Source of the DNA: Nitrospirota bacterium
Lineage (GTDB): Bacteria; Nitrospirota; Thermodesulfovibrionia; UBA6902; DSMQ01
Reading direction: 5' to 3'
Length of the DNA: 49,830 nt
Assembly (NCBI GenBank): GCA_016212185.1
Contig: JACRGX010000086.1
Coordinates: 1-49,830, forward strand
Shown here piece after piece: positions 19,865-33,175 of this stretch; positions within the stretch are counted from its first letter, which is position 1; every line of letters starts with the position of its first letter. A program made the translations under genes and the position numbers. Under the pieces are notes generated by a model. That model ran no database searches, was not told the DNA's origin, and worked only from the letters and a program-made list of their open reading frames with translations.

Positions 19865-20710
19865 ATGCAGATTATAAAAACCATAAAAGACATGCAGGCA
19901 TTAAGCAGGAACTTTATTGCCGGAGGTAAAACCATAGGTTTTGTCCCGACAATGGGCGCACTGCATGAAGGACATCTAAGCCTTGTAAAATATTCTAAAA
20001 GGGAAAATGATGTAACAGCGGTCAGTATTTTCGTAAACCCGGTGCAATTCGGACACGGAGAGGACTTTAACCGGTATCCAAGGGATATTGAAGGGGATTT
20101 AGGCAAATTGTCGACGTTTGACGTGGATGCTGTTTTTATCCCTGAGGCAGATGAGATATATCCTCAGGGTTTTTCAACGCTTATAAATGTGGGTCGTATC
20201 GGAGAAAAACTCTGCGGCGCCTCAAGACCGAGTCATTTTAACGGCGTGGCAACTGTAGTTTCAAAACTCTTTAATATTGTCATGCCTCACAAGGCGTATT
20301 TCGGACAAAAGGATTTTCAGCAGACGGTGGTTATAAAAAAGCTGGCAAAGGAACTGAATTTTGACATAGACATCGTGGTCTGCCCGACGATGAGGGAGGC
20401 TGACGGACTTGCCATGAGTTCAAGAAACAATTATCTGAATCCTGCGGAAAGAAAGGCGGCGCTTGTTTTGTACGATGCATTAAAGCGCGGTAAGAGTTTT
20501 ATAGACAGCGGCGTTAAAGACGTATCATTTATCAGGGAAGCGCTGACAGACCTGATAAACTCCGAACCGCCGGCGACAATAGATTATGTAGAGATTGTGG
20601 AACCTGAGAGCCTTGAAAAAATTGAAACGGTAAAACTGCCTGCTGTCTTATGCCTCGCCGTTAAAATAGGCGCAACGAGGCTTATTGACAATATGGTGTT
20701 CACCCCCTAA
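19865..20710 (+). CDS. panC: Pantothenate synthetase
   Basis: Condenses pantoate and beta-alanine using ATP, the last step of pantothenate (vitamin B5) synthesis. The 281 residues have the HIGH-type ATP site HEGH at 34-37 in PTMGALHEGHLSLV, then SIFVNPVQFGHGEDFNRYPR, KLFNIVMPHKAYFGQKDFQQ and the RNNYLNP loop. The length is normal. panB and panD are not adjacent. Its stop codon overlaps the recR stop in the convergent direction. The spacer to tig (80 bases) must hold both promoters. Confidence 0.96.
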   Translation: MQIIKTIKDMQALSRNFIAGGKTIGFVPTMGALHEGHLSLVKYSKRENDVTAVSIFVNPVQFGHGEDFNRYPRDIEGDLGKLSTFDVDAVFIPEADEIYPQGFSTLINVGRIGEKLCGASRPSHFNGVATVVSKLFNIVMPHKAYFGQKDFQQTVVIKKLAKELNFDIDIVVCPTMREADGLAMSSRNNYLNPAERKAALVLYDALKRGKSFIDSGVKDVSFIREALTDLINSEPPATIDYVEIVEPESLEKIETVKLPAVLCLAVKIGATRLIDNMVFTP

Positions 20711-21315
20711 TTCTTGTCTGTCATCTCCTTTCTTCCCTCAAGCGCCTTTGCAATCGTGACTTCATCTGCAAATTCAATGTCCCCGCCTATTGGAAGCCCC
20801 TGCGCAATACGGGTTGTTTTTATGCCGAGCGGTTTTAAAACCTGAGATAAATATTGCGCAGTAGTTTCTCCCTTTGTGTTGGGATTTGTTGCAATGATAA
20901 CTTCTGCGACTTCTCCACTTGTCTTTATCCTGTCAATCAGTTCAGTAATCTTTAATTTTTCCGGGGTGACGCCGTCTATGGGGGAAAGGGCGCCCAGAAG
21001 CACGTGATAAAGCCCTTTGTACGTCTTTGTCCGTTCAATAACAATCAGATTGCTCGGCTCCTCAACAACGCATATCCTGCTTTTATCGCGTGTTGAGTCA
21101 CTGCAGATAGCGCATATCTCCTCTTCTGTAATATTAAAACAGAGGCTGCAGAACCGTGCTTTTTCCTTTATTTCAAGGAGTGCTCTGGCTATAGATTTGA
21201 CCTCATCAGGCGGCATCCCCATTATAAAAAAAGATAAACGCTGCGCAGTCTTTCTCCCGATGCCCGGAAGTTTCGTGAACGCATTTATTAGATTCTCCAC
21301 AATCCCGTTGCTCAT
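20707..21315 (-). CDS. recR: Recombination mediator RecR
   Basis: DNA-clamp protein of the RecFOR pathway, loading RecA at gaps. The 202 residues contain the N-terminal helix-hairpin-helix LPGIGRKTAQRL, a four-Cys zinc finger (C56, C59, C68, C71), and a Toprim domain with VVEEPSNLIVIE and EVIIATNPNTKGETTA, ending in the usual TRIAQGLPIGGDIEFADE. The start overlaps the ybaB stop by 4 bases. It is the third gene of the dnaX-ybaB-recR group. Confidence 0.96.
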   Translation of the reverse strand: MSNGIVENLINAFTKLPGIGRKTAQRLSFFIMGMPPDEVKSIARALLEIKEKARFCSLCFNITEEEICAICSDSTRDKSRICVVEEPSNLIVIERTKTYKGLYHVLLGALSPIDGVTPEKLKITELIDRIKTSGEVAEVIIATNPNTKGETTAQYLSQVLKPLGIKTTRIAQGLPIGGDIEFADEVTIAKALEGRKEMTDKN

Positions 21316-21644
21316 TGACCAAAAAGACCGCCCATGCCCGGGATTTGCAGTCCGCCCGTAAGCTTGCTCATATCCTCTGCTACCATATTCTGTGCGCGCC
21401 TTAACGCTTCATTGACTGCCGCGGCAATCAGGTCCTGAAGCATCTCGATATCATCAGGGTTTACAACATTTTTTTCAATTTTAATGGATACTATTTCCAT
21501 CGCACCGCTTGCAGTTACGGTAACCATGCCTCCGCCTGAGGAGGCCTCAACGGTCTTTTTCTTTGCCTCTTCCTGAATCTTTCCCATCTCCTGCTGCATT
21601 TTCTGCGCCTGTTTCATAATGTCGCCAAACATTTTCTTAGACAT
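21312..21644 (-). CDS. ybaB: YbaB/EbfC family nucleoid-associated protein
   Basis: Small DNA-binding protein of 110 residues, forming dimers that bind DNA and affect nucleoid structure. Typical features are MFGDIMKQAQKMQQEMGKIQ, the GGGMVTVTASGAMEIVSIKI core and ALRRAQNMVAEDMSKLTGG. It sits between dnaX and recR and overlaps recR by 4 bases, the standard bacterial arrangement. A good ribosome-binding site (AGGAGG) precedes the ATG. Confidence 0.94.
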   Translation of the reverse strand: MSKKMFGDIMKQAQKMQQEMGKIQEEAKKKTVEASSGGGMVTVTASGAMEIVSIKIEKNVVNPDDIEMLQDLIAAAVNEALRRAQNMVAEDMSKLTGGLQIPGMGGLFGQ

Positions 21645-21828: not shown

Positions 21829-23421
21829 TTATTCACTGCCGTTAAGCGGTTTAATCTTTAACAGCTTTCCATTAAAAAGTTCCAGCGTATTTCTGACTGT
21901 GGGGTCGGAAAGTATGGCTTGTTTTATTTCCTCGCCTGTCTTTTCCCCGTTTTTGTCCGGCAATGACACAACTTTTAATTTCAGCCGTTGTCCGGTGATA
22001 TCTTTGAGTGCATCTTCAATAATGCGTGCGTTTTTCCCAACGGACTCGGCAAGCACTGACATGCCGCCGTTAAAGCTTATTGTGAGCCCTGCATCGGTAA
22101 GACCGACAACTTTTGCCTCTGTCAGTTTGCACGCTATGAGACTGTCTTCGGCTTTAAGTTTTTCAATTACTTTATGCCATAATTCCAAGCTGCCGTTTGC
22201 TTCTTTTTTGTTGTTTGTCTGTTTATCTTCAGCGGATGATTTTGCCTGCGCCTTATGCTCAACTGCGAGTTTTGCGCTAATGCCTTTAACTGTGGTGCCT
22301 TCCAGCTTTTCCAAGAGATCATTGAGTGAAGTCATGCCTTTAACAAACGATGTGCGTAAAAGGCCGAGTTCAAGAGCATATCTCGGGTTCGCGGCAGTTT
22401 TTACCTCTGCCTCAAGTTTCATAAGCTGGCTCAGGAGCAGTGTCAGCTCTTCCATGCTGACCGTTGATGCCTGCTGACTCAGATGCTCCATTTCGGACTC
22501 TGTAAATTCAAGAAGCGCACCTGCTTTCCCGGATATTTTTACAACTGCTAAATTGCGGAAGTGCTCAACTATCTCTTTGACTACCGGTTTAAGATCATAT
22601 CCCCTGTCAGAGAGGTCTTTTATGATGAAAAGATTCTCAGAGATATCGCCTTTTAGCGTTGCCTCTGAAAGTTTTAAAATTATGTCCGCCTCAGGCAGTC
22701 CAAGGAGCATTTGCAGTTCATTCTCGCCGACATCGTCGCTGAAGGAAGATGCCTGGTCCAGCATGGTAAGCGCATCCCTCATGCTTCCGTCTGCAGCCCT
22801 TGCTATCATCTCAAGCGCGGTATCATTTATATTTATATTTTCAGCCTTTGAAATCTGCTGTAAATGCTCTTTGATTTTTCCTCTCAGAACTTTCCGGAAG
22901 ACATGATGCTGACACCGGGATAGGATTGTTGCTGGTATCTTTTTAGGCGCTGTAGTGGCAAAGATGAAAATGACGTGAGGCGGCGGCTCTTCAAGCGTTT
23001 TCAGCAGTGCATTAAATGCAGATTCTGACAGCATGTGAATTTCGTCTATGATGTATATTTTATACCTGCTGCCTGAAGGCGCGTATTTCACGGTTTCCCT
23101 CAGATCGCGCACATTATCAACCTGCGTGTTTGATGCGCCGTCAATCTCAAAGACATCAACAGATGAGCCGGTTGTTATTGACAGGCAGTCCGGGCATTTT
23201 CCGCAGGGTGAGGCAGTAGGTCCTTCGGCGCAGTTGAGGGCTTTTGCCAGAATCCTTGCGGCAGATGTCTTGCCGACCCCCCTCGGGCCTGAGAACAGAT
23301 ATGCATGGACGACCTTACCGCCTGTGATGGCGTTTTTCAGGGTTTTGACAAGCGTCTCCTGCCCTGTCAGTTCGTCAAAGCCCTGAGGTCTCCATTTCCT
23401 TGCAAGAACAAGATAACTCAT
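21829..23421 (-). CDS. dnaX: DNA polymerase III subunit gamma/tau
   Basis: Clamp-loader ATPase subunit, 530 residues. Walker A GPRGVGKT is at 45-52, the zinc-binding Cys are C64, C73, C76 and C79, Walker B is YIIDEIHMLS, and the sensor-1 region FIFATTAPKKIPATILSRCQ follows. Domain III (about 225-365) and a tau-like C-terminal region follow. No obvious slippery sequence for making gamma was seen, though this was not searched exhaustively. It lies directly downstream of the SRP RNA gene and upstream of ybaB-recR, the same order as in Bacillus. Confidence 0.95.
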   Translation of the reverse strand: MSYLVLARKWRPQGFDELTGQETLVKTLKNAITGGKVVHAYLFSGPRGVGKTSAARILAKALNCAEGPTASPCGKCPDCLSITTGSSVDVFEIDGASNTQVDNVRDLRETVKYAPSGSRYKIYIIDEIHMLSESAFNALLKTLEEPPPHVIFIFATTAPKKIPATILSRCQHHVFRKVLRGKIKEHLQQISKAENININDTALEMIARAADGSMRDALTMLDQASSFSDDVGENELQMLLGLPEADIILKLSEATLKGDISENLFIIKDLSDRGYDLKPVVKEIVEHFRNLAVVKISGKAGALLEFTESEMEHLSQQASTVSMEELTLLLSQLMKLEAEVKTAANPRYALELGLLRTSFVKGMTSLNDLLEKLEGTTVKGISAKLAVEHKAQAKSSAEDKQTNNKKEANGSLELWHKVIEKLKAEDSLIACKLTEAKVVGLTDAGLTISFNGGMSVLAESVGKNARIIEDALKDITGQRLKLKVVSLPDKNGEKTGEEIKQAILSDPTVRNTLELFNGKLLKIKPLNGSE

Positions 23422-23427
23422 ATCAAA

Positions 23428-23532
23428 TCAGTTAACAGTTGACAGTTGTCAGTGAACAGTGAATAGTTTTAAAATACATTTTAATTAAAAATTCCTTAAC
23501 TCTTAACTTATAACTGTTAACAGTTAACTGTA
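23428..23532. repeat. CAGTTAACAGTTGACAG inverted repeat between dnaX and SRP RNA
   Basis: The left arm CAGTTAACAGTTGACAG and the right arm CTGTTAACAGTTAACTG bracket an AT-rich centre. It is the first of six related inverted repeats that lie between the RNA genes up to 25.85 kb. Confidence 0.6.
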
Positions 23533-23540
23533 GTTTAAGT

Positions 23541-23647
23541 CAGGCTTTCAGGTAATCCTGCGGCACACGGGGCAACTGCTTACCGTTGCTTCCTTCCGAA
23601 CCTGGCGGAGTTTACAGCACCCTGTCGCACAGGGCCCAAAAGCCTGA
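23541..23647 (-). ncRNA. ffs: SRP RNA, bacterial small type (4.5S)
   Basis: RNA core of the signal recognition particle that binds Ffh and targets membrane proteins. On the minus strand the ends CAGGCTTTTGGG and CCTGAAAGCCTG pair. The conserved tip CAGGTTCGGAAGGAAGCA is followed by ACGGTAAGCAGTTGCC. About 107 nucleotides means the small form without an Alu domain. It lies 120 bases upstream of dnaX on the same strand. Confidence 0.93.
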
Positions 23648-23659
23648 CAATTATTAAGA

Positions 23660-23762
23660 CAGTGTCGGTGTCAGTTGTCAGTGTCAGTATACAGTAAAAA
23701 CAACTAACTTTGAAATTTTATTATTATAATTTTCTAACTGTTCACTTGTCACTGTTCACTGA
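23660..23762. repeat. CAGTTGTCAGTGTCAGT inverted repeat between SRP RNA and tRNA-Ser(GGA)
   Basis: The left arm GTCAGTTGTCAGTGTCAGT and the right arm ACTGTTCACTTGTCACTG are degenerate complements around an AT-rich centre. It is a member of the same family as 23428-23532. Confidence 0.55.
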
Positions 23763-23768
23763 TGTTCA

Positions 23769-23859
23769 TGGCGGAGAGGGCGGGATTTGAACCCGCGAGA
23801 CGCTATTAACGCCTACACGATTTCCAGTCGTGCTCCTTCGGCCGCTCGGACACCTCTCC
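23769..23859 (-). tRNA. tRNA-Ser (anticodon GGA)
   Basis: Class II tRNA of 91 nucleotides with acceptor GGAGAGG/CCTCTCC, anticodon loop CTGGAAA, a long variable arm (TAGGCGTTAATAGCGTC) and T-arm CGGGTTCAAATCCCG. The discriminator is G and the CCA end is encoded. It reads UCC and UCU codons. Confidence 0.94.
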
Positions 23860-23867
23860 GTTTAACT

Positions 23868-23950
23868 GCAGTAATCAGTGATCAGTAAAAACTAACTGCA
23901 TTTAAAAAACAATCAGCAATATTTTCAACCGGTCACTCATCACTGATTTT
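23868..23950. repeat. CAGTAATCAGTGATCAGT inverted repeat between two tRNA-Ser genes
   Basis: The left arm CAGTAATCAGTGATCAGT and the right arm GGTCACTCATCACTGAT are imperfect complements. It is a member of the same spacer family. Confidence 0.5.
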
Positions 23951-23952
23951 TA

Positions 23953-24043
23953 TGGCGGAAGGAGCAGGATTCGAACCTGCGTCCCGAATAAATCGGGAAA
24001 CGGTTTTCGAGACCGCCGCATTCAACCGCTCTGCCATCCTTCC
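23953..24043 (-). tRNA. tRNA-Ser (anticodon CGA)
   Basis: Class II tRNA of 91 nucleotides with acceptor GGAAGGA/TCCTTCC, anticodon loop CTCGAAA, variable arm TTTCCCGATTTATTCGGGA and T-arm GCAGGTTCGAATCCTGC. CCA is encoded. It reads UCG codons. Confidence 0.94.
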
Positions 24044-24080
24044 AATTTTTTTTAAGCCAATCTCTGCCTATGTGTCTGAG

Positions 24081-24203
24081 ATAATTTCAAATTTCAAAAT
24101 CCAAATTTCAAATAAAGATCAAATAAACAATAAGCAAATAATCATTTAAACTTTAACCTTCATTTGGCATTTGAGCTTTGTAATTTGACATTAATAAATT
24201 ACA
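24081..24203. repeat. AT-rich imperfect inverted-repeat element, copy 2
   Basis: It begins ATTTCAAATTTCAAAATCC and ends CATTTGGCATTTGAGC, TTTGTAATTTGACATTAATA. Read on the minus strand it repeats the word order of 3461-3558, so the two are copies of one element in opposite orientation. No gene is present in this spacer. Confidence 0.6.
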
Positions 24204-24242
24204 ATGCCTGTAAAGATAAATATTAATCACTACAGATAATAC

Positions 24243-24815
24243 CTATCTGCGTTTTTGAAAAAAATCCCTGAGTAATGCGGCGCATTCGTCCGCTAAAACA
24301 CCTGAGACAACTTCAACCTGATGATTCAGCCTTTTGTCTGAAAGTATCCGGTAAAGGCTGTTGACTGCACCGCCCTTTTCATCCGCACACCCGTAAACAA
24401 CCCTGCCAAGCCTTGCATTAACCATGGCCCCCGCACACATAACACAGGGCTCTTTGGTTACATAGAGGACTGCATCTGTCAAACGCCAGCTTTTAAGCAG
24501 GGAAGCCCCATCCCTGAGCGCTGTCAGCTCTGCATGCGCTGAAGGATCGTTTTCCGTCTCCCTCATATTGCAAGCCGATGTTATGACAATGTTGTTTTTT
24601 ACAAGAACTGCACCGACTGGAACCTCATCCCTGAGAAATGCCTTCTGCGCCTCTGTCAGCGCAAGACGCATAAACCGCTCATCAGGATTTTTTTCAGGGA
24701 AACAGACAGGACAGTATTCCTCTCCGTAATCAAGGCTGCAGATATGACTGCATTCAGGACAACATATACAGTCTTTTACAGGCTTTTCGCATACAGCGCA
24801 AATTTCAGTCTGCAT
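24243..24815 (-). CDS. tadA: tRNA-specific adenosine deaminase TadA with Cys-rich N-terminal extension
   Basis: Zinc enzyme that converts A34 to inosine in tRNA-Arg(ACG), allowing one tRNA to read CGU, CGC and CGA. The 190 residues hold the deaminase core from about 48, with His94-Ala-Glu96 (proton shuttle) and P-C124-x2-C127 as zinc ligands. Residues 1-40 form an extra zinc-ribbon-like region with nine Cys (6, 9, 16, 18, 19, 22, 26, 35, 38), not usual for TadA. An internal ATG at residue 49 would give the standard-length enzyme, but the Cys-rich part reads as real protein. The gene for its substrate tRNA-Arg(ACG) ends 12 bases upstream on the same strand. Confidence 0.93.
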   Translation of the reverse strand: MQTEICAVCEKPVKDCICCPECSHICSLDYGEEYCPVCFPEKNPDERFMRLALTEAQKAFLRDEVPVGAVLVKNNIVITSACNMRETENDPSAHAELTALRDGASLLKSWRLTDAVLYVTKEPCVMCAGAMVNARLGRVVYGCADEKGGAVNSLYRILSDKRLNHQVEVVSGVLADECAALLRDFFQKRR

Positions 24816-24827
24816 AAATTACTACAG

Positions 24828-24901
24828 CGCGCCCAGAGGGAGTCGAACCCCCGACCTTCGGATTCGTAGTCCGTCGCTCTATCCATCTGAGCTATGGGCG
24901 C
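24828..24901 (-). tRNA. tRNA-Arg (anticodon ACG)
   Basis: 74 nucleotides with acceptor GCGCCCA/TGGGCGC, D-arm TAGCTCAGATGGATAGAGC, anticodon loop CTACGAA and T-arm GGGGGTTCGACTCCCTC. The A34 of this tRNA is the target of TadA, encoded just downstream. CCA is not encoded. Confidence 0.95.
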
Positions 24902-24907
24902 TTTAAA

Positions 24908-24966
24908 AATAGTTCACAGCGGACAGTTGACAGTTTTATCCCACTGTCAACTGTCAACCGTTAACT
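24908..24966. repeat. CAGTTGACAGT inverted repeat between tRNA-Arg and the lipoprotein gene
   Basis: The arms GTTCACAGCGGACAGTTGAC (left) and CTGTCAACTGTCAACCGTTA (right) face each other across a short TTTTATC centre, with ACAGTTGACAGT/ACTGTCAACTGT the best-paired part. It could also act as a terminator for the lipoprotein gene. Confidence 0.6.
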
Positions 24967-24972
24967 CCCTTG

Positions 24973-25509
24973 CTACTTTTTTACCCCTTCTTTAAGGGTG
25001 ATGCCAAACCGGTCATGCTGGAAAGGGTGTATGTTGGGAAACTTTGCATAAAGCCATCCGCCTTCACCTGAGCCCGGGAATATCTGTTTGCCGCTCTCGT
25101 AAACTGATATGCCGGCAGCCGGATTGTTGGCATTATTGGACGCTGAGGTAATAATATTGCCGTTCATCTTGAAATCCGGCAGAAAGTCGCTTACCTTAAC
25201 CGTCAGGTTTGAATCAGGAATCTTCAATTCACTGCTAAGGCCAACTGTGTACTCCTGTGTCTTTTTTGTTTTTTTATCGTCTATAATTAGCTTAACTGCA
25301 GACCATTTGCCTTTTACATCAGGCGGTACAGATACTGTGAGCGGGCCGATTGAGCCTGTAGGTCCATGTCCGGGCGGCAAAGCCGGCGCGCCTGCCTGGC
25401 CTTCCTGTGAAAAGGTTTTTGGGACAGGCTGTTCCTCCTTTTTCTTACATGCAACGACTGACAGCAGGATCATTCCTGCAACTGCTGAAACTGCCAAGAA
25501 CTTCTTCAT
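24973..25509 (-). CDS. DUF2155-like lipoprotein
   Basis: Predicted lipoprotein of 178 residues. Its signal peptide ends in the lipobox LLSVVAC with the lipidated Cys at 21, followed by a Lys/Glu-rich linker and a Pro/Gly stretch. The folded part (about 65-175) shows LIIDDKKTKKTQEYTVGLSS, LTVKVSDFLPDF and GWLYAKFPNIHPFQHDRFGI. This resembles the DUF2155 pattern of a small ligand-like beta domain. AAGGAGG precedes the ATG. It is transcribed toward tRNA-Arg and tadA. The function is unknown and envelope-associated. Confidence 0.75.
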   Translation of the reverse strand: MKKFLAVSAVAGMILLSVVACKKKEEQPVPKTFSQEGQAGAPALPPGHGPTGSIGPLTVSVPPDVKGKWSAVKLIIDDKKTKKTQEYTVGLSSELKIPDSNLTVKVSDFLPDFKMNGNIITSASNNANNPAAGISVYESGKQIFPGSGEGGWLYAKFPNIHPFQHDRFGITLKEGVKK

Positions 25510-25539
25510 CTTAAATCCTCCTTTTTTTTTAGTTTCCAG

Positions 25540-25608
25540 TTAAAAGTTATTTATATTAAAGTTTATGGGTTATCTGACTCATAACTCATAACTTAGAACT
25601 GCTTTTTA
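25540..25608. repeat. Degenerate CCAGTTAAAAGTTAT inverted repeat
   Basis: CCAGTTAAAAGTTAT faces ATAACTCATAACTTAGAACT in the spacer between the lipoprotein gene and tRNA-Ser(GCT). It is a weaker member of the spacer repeat family. Confidence 0.4.
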
Positions 25609-25609
25609 C

Positions 25610-25702
25610 TGGCGGAGAGGCAGGGATTCGAACCCTGGGTGGAGTTATTAGCCCCACAACCGCTTAGCAGGCGGCTGCCTTCGACCTCTCGGCCACCTCT
25701 CC
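25610..25702 (-). tRNA. tRNA-Ser (anticodon GCT)
   Basis: Class II tRNA of 93 nucleotides with acceptor GGAGAGG/CCTCTCC, anticodon arm CCGCCTGCTAAGCGG, a long variable arm (TGTGGGGCTAATAACTCCAC) and T-arm CAGGGTTCGAATCCCTG. CCA is encoded. It reads AGC and AGU codons. With the GGA and CGA genes nearby, three of the usual four Ser acceptors lie within 2 kb. Confidence 0.94.
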
Positions 25703-26003
25703 TTAGTGAATAGTAAACAGTATAAAGAAAGTGGCATGAGAAAAAGGGTCAAGTGCCCCTTTGCTGCTATTTGATTATCCTCGCCCCTTAACCATTTTGC
25801 TATTACTCACTAAATACTGTCTTTAATATTAACAAATAAGGGATTTTTTTGTAAATACTTATTGAGAAAGGATAGTGGGAGGCTTTTAAGGCGGATGCAA
25901 TTTTATAAAAATGCGGGATTCGTATGATTACCGCCTGGATCTTAAAACGCAGCCGGACGACATTATGCCGAAGTATATTACTGCGCTTAGCGGCTGGTTT
26001 AGC
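25703..26003. other. Spacer with a degenerate inverted repeat, no clear gene
   Basis: TAGTGAATAGTAAACAGTAT (about 25704-25723) and GCTATTACTCACTAAATACT (about 25799-25818) are imperfect complements of the same repeat type as the other RNA spacers. A 47-codon frame from 25911 (YDYRLDLKTQPDDIMPKYIT) has no recognisable family and runs into the response regulator gene. Confidence 0.4.
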
Positions 26004-32206: not shown

Positions 32207-33175
32207 ATGAAACCTTCTTTTCATGCAAGACTTGTTAACGGACCGTTTGAAGACCCAGGGCTTTATGTAAGGCTCTTGAGGGAAAGCAGGGCGTTTCTTT
32301 TTGATGCAGGTTTTACTGCGAACCTCTCTGCAAGGGATATTCTCAAAGTAAGCGATATATTTATCTCTCATACGCATGTGGACCACTTTATCGGGTTTGA
32401 TAATATCCTGAGGCTCCATCTGAGGAAAGAAGAGCCTATGAGACTCTATGGGCCTGAGGGTTTTCTGGATCGCATTGAGGGAAAGCTTAAAGGCTATACA
32501 TGGAATCTCATAGGAGATTACCCCCTGATTATTGAAGCTGCGGAGATTAATGAAAAGACTGTCACAAAGGCACGTTTCAGGACACAGAATTCCTTTAAGC
32601 GCGAAAATACGGCATCAGCGTCTTTTGACGGTGTTTTGCTTAAAGATTCTTTTTTTAAAGTGGAGGCGGCAGTTCTTGACCATCAGATTCCATGCCTTGC
32701 GTTCAGCATGGAGGAGGATTACCACATAAATATTGATAAGGCTGAATTAAATAAATTAGACCTTCCCGTAGGGCAATGGCTTGGAGAGCTTAAGCAGGCT
32801 ATACGGGATGGAGCCGCGGACAGGGTTTTTAAAATTAATGATAAACAGTTTAATTTCTCAGAACTCAAATACATAGCTAATATAACCAGAGGGCAGAAAT
32901 TGTCTTATGTCGTTGACACCATCGGCACAGAAGAAAACATGAAAAAGATTATAGACCTTGCAAAAGGCTCGGATGTCCTGTACATTGAGGCGTATTTTTT
33001 AGACAGGGATGATGACAGGGCAAAGGAGCGGTATCATCTTACTGCAAAAGAGGCAGGCAGGATTGCCAGAGAGGCAGGGGCGGGAAGACTGGAGGTCTTC
33101 CATTTTTCCCCGAAATACACAGACGTCCCGGGTGAGATTGTGAAAGAGGCGGAAGAGGAGTTTGGAGGCGGATAA
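32207..33175 (+). CDS. RNase Z-like metallo-beta-lactamase-fold hydrolase
   Basis: Metal-dependent hydrolase of 322 residues, closest in pattern to RNase Z, which trims tRNA 3' ends. The H55-x-H57-x-D59-H60 motif is in IFISHTHVDHFIGF. Other markers are LDHQIPCLAFSMEE, VVDTIG, LYIEAYFLDRDDDRAKERYH and LEVFHFSPKYTDVPGE. Several tRNAs in the window lack an encoded CCA (Met, Arg), which would need RNase Z processing. That fits, but it does not prove the assignment. It is divergent from galT; the ATG follows TATATCACTATTTAAGTTATAAT-like promoter sequence. Confidence 0.78.
   Translation: MKPSFHARLVNGPFEDPGLYVRLLRESRAFLFDAGFTANLSARDILKVSDIFISHTHVDHFIGFDNILRLHLRKEEPMRLYGPEGFLDRIEGKLKGYTWNLIGDYPLIIEAAEINEKTVTKARFRTQNSFKRENTASASFDGVLLKDSFFKVEAAVLDHQIPCLAFSMEEDYHINIDKAELNKLDLPVGQWLGELKQAIRDGAADRVFKINDKQFNFSELKYIANITRGQKLSYVVDTIGTEENMKKIIDLAKGSDVLYIEAYFLDRDDDRAKERYHLTAKEAGRIAREAGAGRLEVFHFSPKYTDVPGEIVKEAEEEFGGG

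Follow-up and report, generated by a model that had tools for sequence, protein, structure and literature searches.

A predicted tRNA-Arg(ACG)-tadA transcription unit in Nitrospirota and a fused cysteine-rich TadA domain related to a candidate selenoprotein family

The stretch of DNA analysed here (referred to as the window) comprises 49,830 nucleotides of contig JACRGX010000086.1 from a Nitrospirota bacterium and harbors, on its minus strand, a tadA gene flanked by tRNA and housekeeping genes. The features relevant to the present analysis, listed in the direction of minus-strand transcription and followed by one gene of the opposite strand, are as follows.

25613..25702, minus strand: tRNA-Ser(GCT), the upstream end of the conserved block (ARAGORN, Rfam)
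24973..25509, minus strand: gene for a small lipoprotein-like protein between tRNA-Ser(GCT) and tRNA-Arg(ACG) (ORF; lipoprotein character assigned by eye only)
24911..24966, minus strand: imperfect hairpin (arms of 24 nt, complementarity 83%) with a short T run after it, a short distance 5' of tRNA-Arg(ACG)
24828..24901, minus strand: tRNA-Arg(ACG) without an encoded CCA (ARAGORN; Rfam RF00005, 64.9 bits)
24816..24827, minus strand: 12-nt spacer between tRNA-Arg(ACG) and the tadA ATG, containing an in-frame TAG TAA (sequence)
24243..24815, minus strand: tadA, 190 amino acids, N-terminal Cys-rich domain plus TadA core (ORF, NCBIfam)
24684..24815, minus strand: N-terminal Cys-rich domain, residues 1-44, with C6, C9, C16, C18, C19, C22, H24, C26, C35 and C38 (alignments)
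24243..24689, minus strand: TadA deaminase core, residues 43-190, with HAE and PCVMC (NF008113, fold)
23956..24043, minus strand: tRNA-Ser(CGA), 3' of tadA and conserved as its neighbour more often than any other tRNA (ARAGORN, Rfam, survey)
23772..23859, minus strand: tRNA-Ser(GGA) (ARAGORN, Rfam)
23543..23641, minus strand: bacterial small SRP RNA, ffs (Rfam RF00169, 61.2 bits)
21829..23421, minus strand: dnaX (TIGR02397, above cut-off)
21312..21644, minus strand: ybaB/ebfC (TIGR00103, above cut-off)
20707..21315, minus strand: recR (TIGR00615, above cut-off)
32207..33175, plus strand: ribonuclease Z gene (NF002558, 361.9 bits against a cut-off of 315)

The lipoprotein-like gene had no NCBIfam match, and the ribonuclease Z gene scores under the cut-off of TIGR02651. 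The minus-strand genes, running from tRNA-Ser(GCT) through the lipoprotein-like gene, tRNA-Arg(ACG), tadA, tRNA-Ser(CGA), tRNA-Ser(GGA), the SRP RNA, dnaX and ybaB to recR, would represent an old same-strand block. The order tadA, SRP RNA, dnaX, ybaB and recR is known in Bacillus subtilis, and the core order of the window is identical to it, while the window differs in harboring tRNA-Arg(ACG) directly upstream of tadA and several tRNA-Ser genes inside the block. Short palindromic repeats related to AACTGTCAACTGT matched the window 13 times with at most two mismatches, where 0.9 matches would be expected, and fall mainly into gaps between the genes of the tRNA block (e.g., 23428-23531 and 24916-24961).

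The initial annotation had placed tRNA-Arg(ACG) 12 bases 5' of the tadA ATG on the same strand, an arrangement which was borne out by ARAGORN, Rfam and the ORF coordinates, the 3' boundary of the tRNA being assigned to 24828 (the discriminator base) by Rfam and to 24827 by ARAGORN. Inspection of the 12-nt spacer revealed neither a Shine-Dalgarno-like site nor an encoded CCA. An argument for leaderless initiation from the missing Shine-Dalgarno site was dropped, because 15 of the 31 long ORFs of the window, taken as a control, lack one at their first start as well. A BLAST search of the tRNA against its own genome returned seven matches, the six other loci of which were identified by ARAGORN as other tRNA species; no second ACG tRNA gene was seen in that genome by this combined search. 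The 110 bases upstream of tadA, including the tRNA and the spacer, are identical in the sister genome (G001).

The tadA product is a predicted TadA, or tRNA adenosine-34 deaminase, with putative A34-to-I34 activity on tRNA-Arg(ACG). Residues 43-190 matched NCBIfam NF008113 with 188.2 bits (cut-off 150), and the translation contains both HAE and PCVMC, in agreement with HAE ... PCxxC, which we take to be the zinc-site motif of TadA. The core was modelled by AlphaFold with a pLDDT near 97, its best Foldseek match being Staphylococcus aureus TadA with RNA (2b3j; E 2e-22, rmsd 0.7). Although this portion thus resembles known TadA proteins in zinc motif and fold, the window TadA carries in addition an N-terminal Cys-rich domain of approximately 44 residues, overlooked in the initial annotation, to which neither the profile nor the structures extend; as this domain takes up codons 1-44, the core begins approximately 137 nt from the tRNA. 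The main known substrate of TadA is tRNA-Arg(ACG); the three serine tRNAs of the block, tRNA-Ser(GCT), tRNA-Ser(CGA) and tRNA-Ser(GGA), are not known to be among its editing targets.

A search with the TadA core matched 178 of 200 genomes of the class, Thermodesulfovibrionia (a few only via a RibD-like gene), and the tadA loci of 142 of these 178 were surveyed for tRNAs by ARAGORN. The adjacency passes the check proposed with the initial annotation, as it recurs among these relatives: 28 of the 142 genomes, distributed over 10 of 19 families and over 21 of 88 genera, have tRNA-Arg(ACG) at most 300 nt upstream of tadA in the same orientation. The original observation is correct and goes further than had been claimed. 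In a second phylum, which was reached via the genome of a Smithella sp. and which we take to be Desulfobacterota, 51 of 59 genomes matched the TadA core, and the same pair was present in 4 of the 30 loci examined. Within 300 nt upstream of tadA, no tRNA other than ACG was counted (28/28 in the class and 4/4 in the second phylum), a count which leaves out four rows for Ser(CGA) at a small positive distance (G004, G072, G088 and G191), in which a downstream tRNA adjoins the tadA match at its end. Assuming approximately 45 tRNA genes in 2.5 Mb, the chance of finding a particular tRNA in a given 300-nt same-strand stretch is below 1 in 10,000, an estimate which speaks to the first event only, the pair counts being linked by descent. 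More generally, the sequences surveyed throughout this study share ancestry, and counts and P values overstate their independence. As regards the tRNA-tadA pair, the cotranscription of a tRNA with its enzyme and the TadA zinc domain, nothing on point was found in the literature searched, which is not to claim their absence from print.

The adjacency is found in many relatives, and the interpretation originally attached to it is partly supported, the pairing being neither specific nor indispensable. The non-substrate tRNA-Ser(CGA) lies at most 300 nt downstream of tadA in 84 of the 142 class genomes, more than the 28 with an upstream tRNA-Arg(ACG), and coupling between enzyme and substrate is thus unproven; furthermore, 114 of the 142 genomes do not have tRNA-Arg(ACG) within 300 nt upstream, and the pairing is therefore dispensable. 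Such a coupling is accordingly regarded here as an idea, and the odds are about even that the pair is instead inherited synteny without consequence, tRNA-Arg(ACG) being by chance one of the tRNA and housekeeping genes which are closely packed in this block, where co-transcription would be possible without any coupling. That most genomes manage without the pair is in keeping with neutral synteny, as are 25 loci of other phyla, where the tRNAs upstream of tadA were Ser(GGA) in three, Arg(CCG) in two and Arg(CCT) in one, and ACG in none. Against it, the upstream tRNA within 300 nt is the substrate in every counted case of both phyla, and tight spacing recurs in several families, although shared descent could account for both the spacing and the substrate-only count. 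Two loci of another phylum (L102 and L105) carry Arg(CCG) 18 nt upstream of tadA and Arg(ACG) approximately 670-700 nt upstream. Two further loci (L028 and L030) possess, in addition to the complete tRNA-Arg(ACG), a duplicate of its 3' part which lies more than 100 nt further downstream and immediately ahead of tadA, a pattern reminiscent of the insertion of an element into the end of the tRNA.

Joint transcription is suggested by the spacing of the pairs. In 16 of the 32 pairs, no more than 42 nt separate the TadA core from tRNA-Arg(ACG), and because the gap in these pairs, and likewise in the window, is too short for a tadA promoter, tRNA-Arg(ACG) and tadA are likely to be transcribed together. 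A promoter or terminator separating the two genes, which would have spoken against the joint transcript envisaged by the initial annotation, was not found in the window, where the 12 nt leave no room and where the terminator scan lists no minus-strand terminator-like site in 23000-26000. The imperfect hairpin at 24911..24966 is a possible end of the upstream transcript, and since it and its T run are situated between the lipoprotein-like gene and the tRNA, the tadA transcription unit may start at tRNA-Arg(ACG). Operons combining tRNA and mRNA are known, an example being the tRNA-tufB operon of Escherichia coli; the window resembles it in that a single predicted transcript has a tRNA ahead of a protein-coding gene, and differs from it in that the protein modifies that very tRNA.

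As the window harbors a ribonuclease Z gene, the release of both tRNA and mRNA from one transcript is plausible. RNase Z would cut the CCA-less tRNA after its discriminator base, thereby freeing the tRNA and leaving a tadA mRNA with a leader of 12 nt. CCA is encoded in 28 of the 32 paired tRNAs, the exceptions being those of the window's genus (G000 and G001), G003 and G144. At one locus (L352), the single standard in-frame tadA start overlaps the CCA end of the tRNA (CC-ATG); excision of the tRNA would remove this start codon unless another start were used, and a better placed non-standard start is possible.

The Cys-rich domain fused to the window TadA has homologues which form separate small ORFs in relatives, either upstream of tadA or at other loci. 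Its nine cysteines and one histidine are invariant among 14 aligned copies, and its Cys22 corresponds to a position which is TGA, a predicted selenocysteine (Sec) codon, in many relatives, the window's own TadA having TGC at this codon and representing the Cys form. The small ORF lies upstream of tadA in 29 of the 142 genomes, which belong to families f1, f3 and f5 only. The order tRNA-Arg(ACG), small ORF, tadA is kept in G007, and G017 contains a decayed small-ORF remnant between the tRNA and tadA. As read from the sequences, fusion of the domain to TadA, an RNA-modifying enzyme, is seen in several genomes, being uninterrupted in the window (G000), G009, G014 and G045. In G008 (locus L032, 4001-4615), the reading frame of the Cys/Sec domain continues into TadA across a TGA at the Sec position and is otherwise open, the sole later in-frame start before the TadA core being the ATG of FMRLAL; this frame is a possible Sec-containing TadA. 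The AlphaFold models of the domain were of middling confidence (66-82 within the whole protein and 81.5 alone), and structure searches yielded no significant fold match.

From these present-day arrangements, a history may be proposed in which, in the window's order, the small Cys-rich gene came between tRNA-Arg(ACG) and tadA, most genomes of that order being subsequently left without tRNA-Arg(ACG) at this place, while in the window's genus the small gene became fused to the front of tadA. The fused domain would in that genus then probably be losing its function, the TadA core remaining under purifying selection. Between the window and G001, the core exhibits 22 synonymous and 5 non-synonymous differences, compared with 1 and 6, respectively, in the domain (Fisher 0.002), a reading of relaxed constraint which relates to one genome pair and seven domain changes. 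One of the six non-synonymous changes is a TGA at Gly31, while the nine cysteines and the histidine are unchanged. In view of this loose evolution and of the stop in the sister genome, the role of the domain in TadA is doubtful.

These same observations bear on whether the real TadA of the window's genus begins at Met49, the frame of the N-terminal domain being a mere leftover. Such a reading would accommodate the TGA at domain codon 31 of G001 and the predominance of non-synonymous changes in the domain, yet the TGA may be a sequencing error, the frame is open in the window, and the uninterrupted fusion occurs in three further genomes. A start at Met49 would, moreover, forfeit residues immediately preceding the FMRLAL helix which the starts of relatives usually include, and we consider it rather unlikely.

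It was also considered whether the tRNA in the leader could act as a regulator, such that TadA would bind or edit unprocessed tRNA-Arg(ACG) beside its own start codon and thereby limit its own translation. TadA acts on an isolated anticodon stem-loop, and the best fold match of the core is a structure of TadA with RNA. The geometry would also be suitable, the start nearest to the core lying 9-38 nt past the tRNA in 14 of the 16 short-gap pairs (11 nt in the window by the same measure) and one more overlapping the tRNA end. However, no conserved leader element was found beyond the tRNA, the nearest-start spacing varies from -1 to 285 nt across the pairs, and a small ORF can lie between tRNA-Arg(ACG) and tadA, all of which render self-regulation improbable.

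Profile matches to the Cys-rich domain were obtained in 100 of the 200 class genomes and, at a stricter limit, in 92 of 395 genomes of a phylum sample. In the second phylum, 6 of 297 genomes matched, none with an internal stop, such that only the Cys form was represented. No relatives were found among 154 pattern matches in viral contigs or in 27 genomes of other phyla, an empty answer of the latter kind proving little. Among 96 distinct copies, TGA occupies model position 19 in 53 and position 18 in two shifted copies (55/96 in total), while the remaining copies have Cys at position 19 (40/96) or an insertion (1/96); all other model positions together account for three TGA codons. In the two shifted copies (L327 and L328, from genomes G162 and G139), the TGA lies one residue earlier (CICPGUEHIC), and G139 has a second TGA near the end. 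Past the TGA, the frame and the conserved cysteines continue, a normal stop following within 35 codons in 50 of 53 copies.

A hairpin located 3' of the TGA, its loop starting approximately 17 nt on, is kept in the TGA copies and was judged by a z score against synonymous recodings and by GGG codon bias rather than by the score of a SECIS program, three copies with other stops in the domain (L008, L112 and L295) being left out of the comparison. GGG encodes Gly28 in 44 of the 52 Sec copies as opposed to 5 of the 36 Cys copies (Fisher 2e-11). The energy of the upper hairpin relative to synonymous recodings gave a mean z of -1.68 in 53 TGA copies and of +0.21 in 37 Cys copies (Mann-Whitney 1e-12). 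SelB scored above its cut-off in 180 of the 200 class genomes as against 2 of 14 controls, and in 52 of the 55 genomes with a Sec copy, the 20 class genomes without SelB above cut-off being read from profile-search E values. A tRNA-Sec was situated beside selB in one of seven selB loci examined (G031), and none was seen at the selB locus of the window's own genome. That genome does carry a member of the selenoprotein family NF041197 (68.4 bits with TGA read as U) which has TGA at its Sec site, and Sec use there is therefore likely.

On the basis of its Sec/Cys pairs, the SECIS-like hairpin and SelB, the stand-alone small protein is proposed as a candidate new selenoprotein family, often with a predicted selenocysteine at the position of Cys22 when free-standing. 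That the TGA is instead a true stop or an assembly error, as might be argued from a Sec assignment made on sequence and from SECIS-like hairpins which are weak in f3 copies when folded alone, receives very little credence from us given the recurrence of TGA at one codon for which many other copies have Cys, the frame that goes on beyond it, a synonymous constraint found in TGA copies only, and the presence of SelB together with the tRNA-Sec of G031. The function of this candidate selenoprotein is likely metal binding or thiol redox chemistry via its CxxU/CxxC pair, as judged from the motif. Clustering of the neighbours in 74 contexts yielded no gene common to all, and the idea that the stand-alone copies have an invariable genomic partner was accordingly rejected. 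The most frequent neighbour, located after the small selenoprotein-type gene of 19 genomes (e.g., L274, 2649-3143), was a gene resembling yajQ by eye.

The novelty of the small family was judged against Pfam, NCBIfam, the family table of a 2026 review (PMC13188914) and passages of PMC12013277. NCBIfam returned no match, and the matches of 30 members to Pfam were scattered, with a best E value of 0.024. In the family table of PMC13188914, the nearest entry by layout is NF041197, the dual CXXC small (seleno)protein OS_HP3, which by eye shares small size and the succession CxxC, U-[SG]-H and YCxxC. The small family differs from it in an added CxCC block and in its location at other loci, the hhalign probability being 2%, and no NF041197 match was found among the 30 members at E values up to 10. 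As the identity of the small protein, NF041197 was rejected, being a different gene in the same genomes, and it stays the nearest analogue. A metallothionein, suggested by the resemblance of the motif to cyanobacterial SmtA, was likewise rejected, the Pfam scan of the 30 members listing none. A profile search of the PDB with the family gave weak matches to zinc or Fe-S sites only; small zinc-ribbon and rubredoxin-like domains resemble it in their paired CxxC motifs and in these weak profile matches, but differ in that no match reached a usable E value and none was a significant fold match. The small family, with its 55 predicted selenocysteine copies, is thus absent from the libraries searched, which is distinct from being unpublished.

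Taken as a whole, the explanation which combines the old block, joint transcription of tRNA-Arg(ACG) and tadA, fusion of the small gene and Sec-type relatives of the fused domain is assigned a probability of roughly 0.7. A far bolder proposal, in which the locus would constitute a selenium- or redox-responsive tRNA editing unit, with the Cys/Sec module (CxxU) influencing TadA initially from a neighbouring gene, later as a fused domain, and with the substrate tRNA in the mRNA leader, is considered highly improbable; if it were true, G008, whose TadA is fused through the TGA, would need selenocysteine insertion for wobble inosine formation and so for the reading of CGN codons. Less to be expected than the tRNA-tadA pair were the fused domain and its predicted selenoprotein relatives, the extra domain of TadA having revealed a small protein family of two phyla that was missed by Pfam and NCBIfam. 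In the conserved arrangement itself, an editing enzyme and the principal tRNA known as its substrate seem to share one transcript, and tRNA supply, tRNA editing and the mRNA of the enzyme could be tied to one another by processing.
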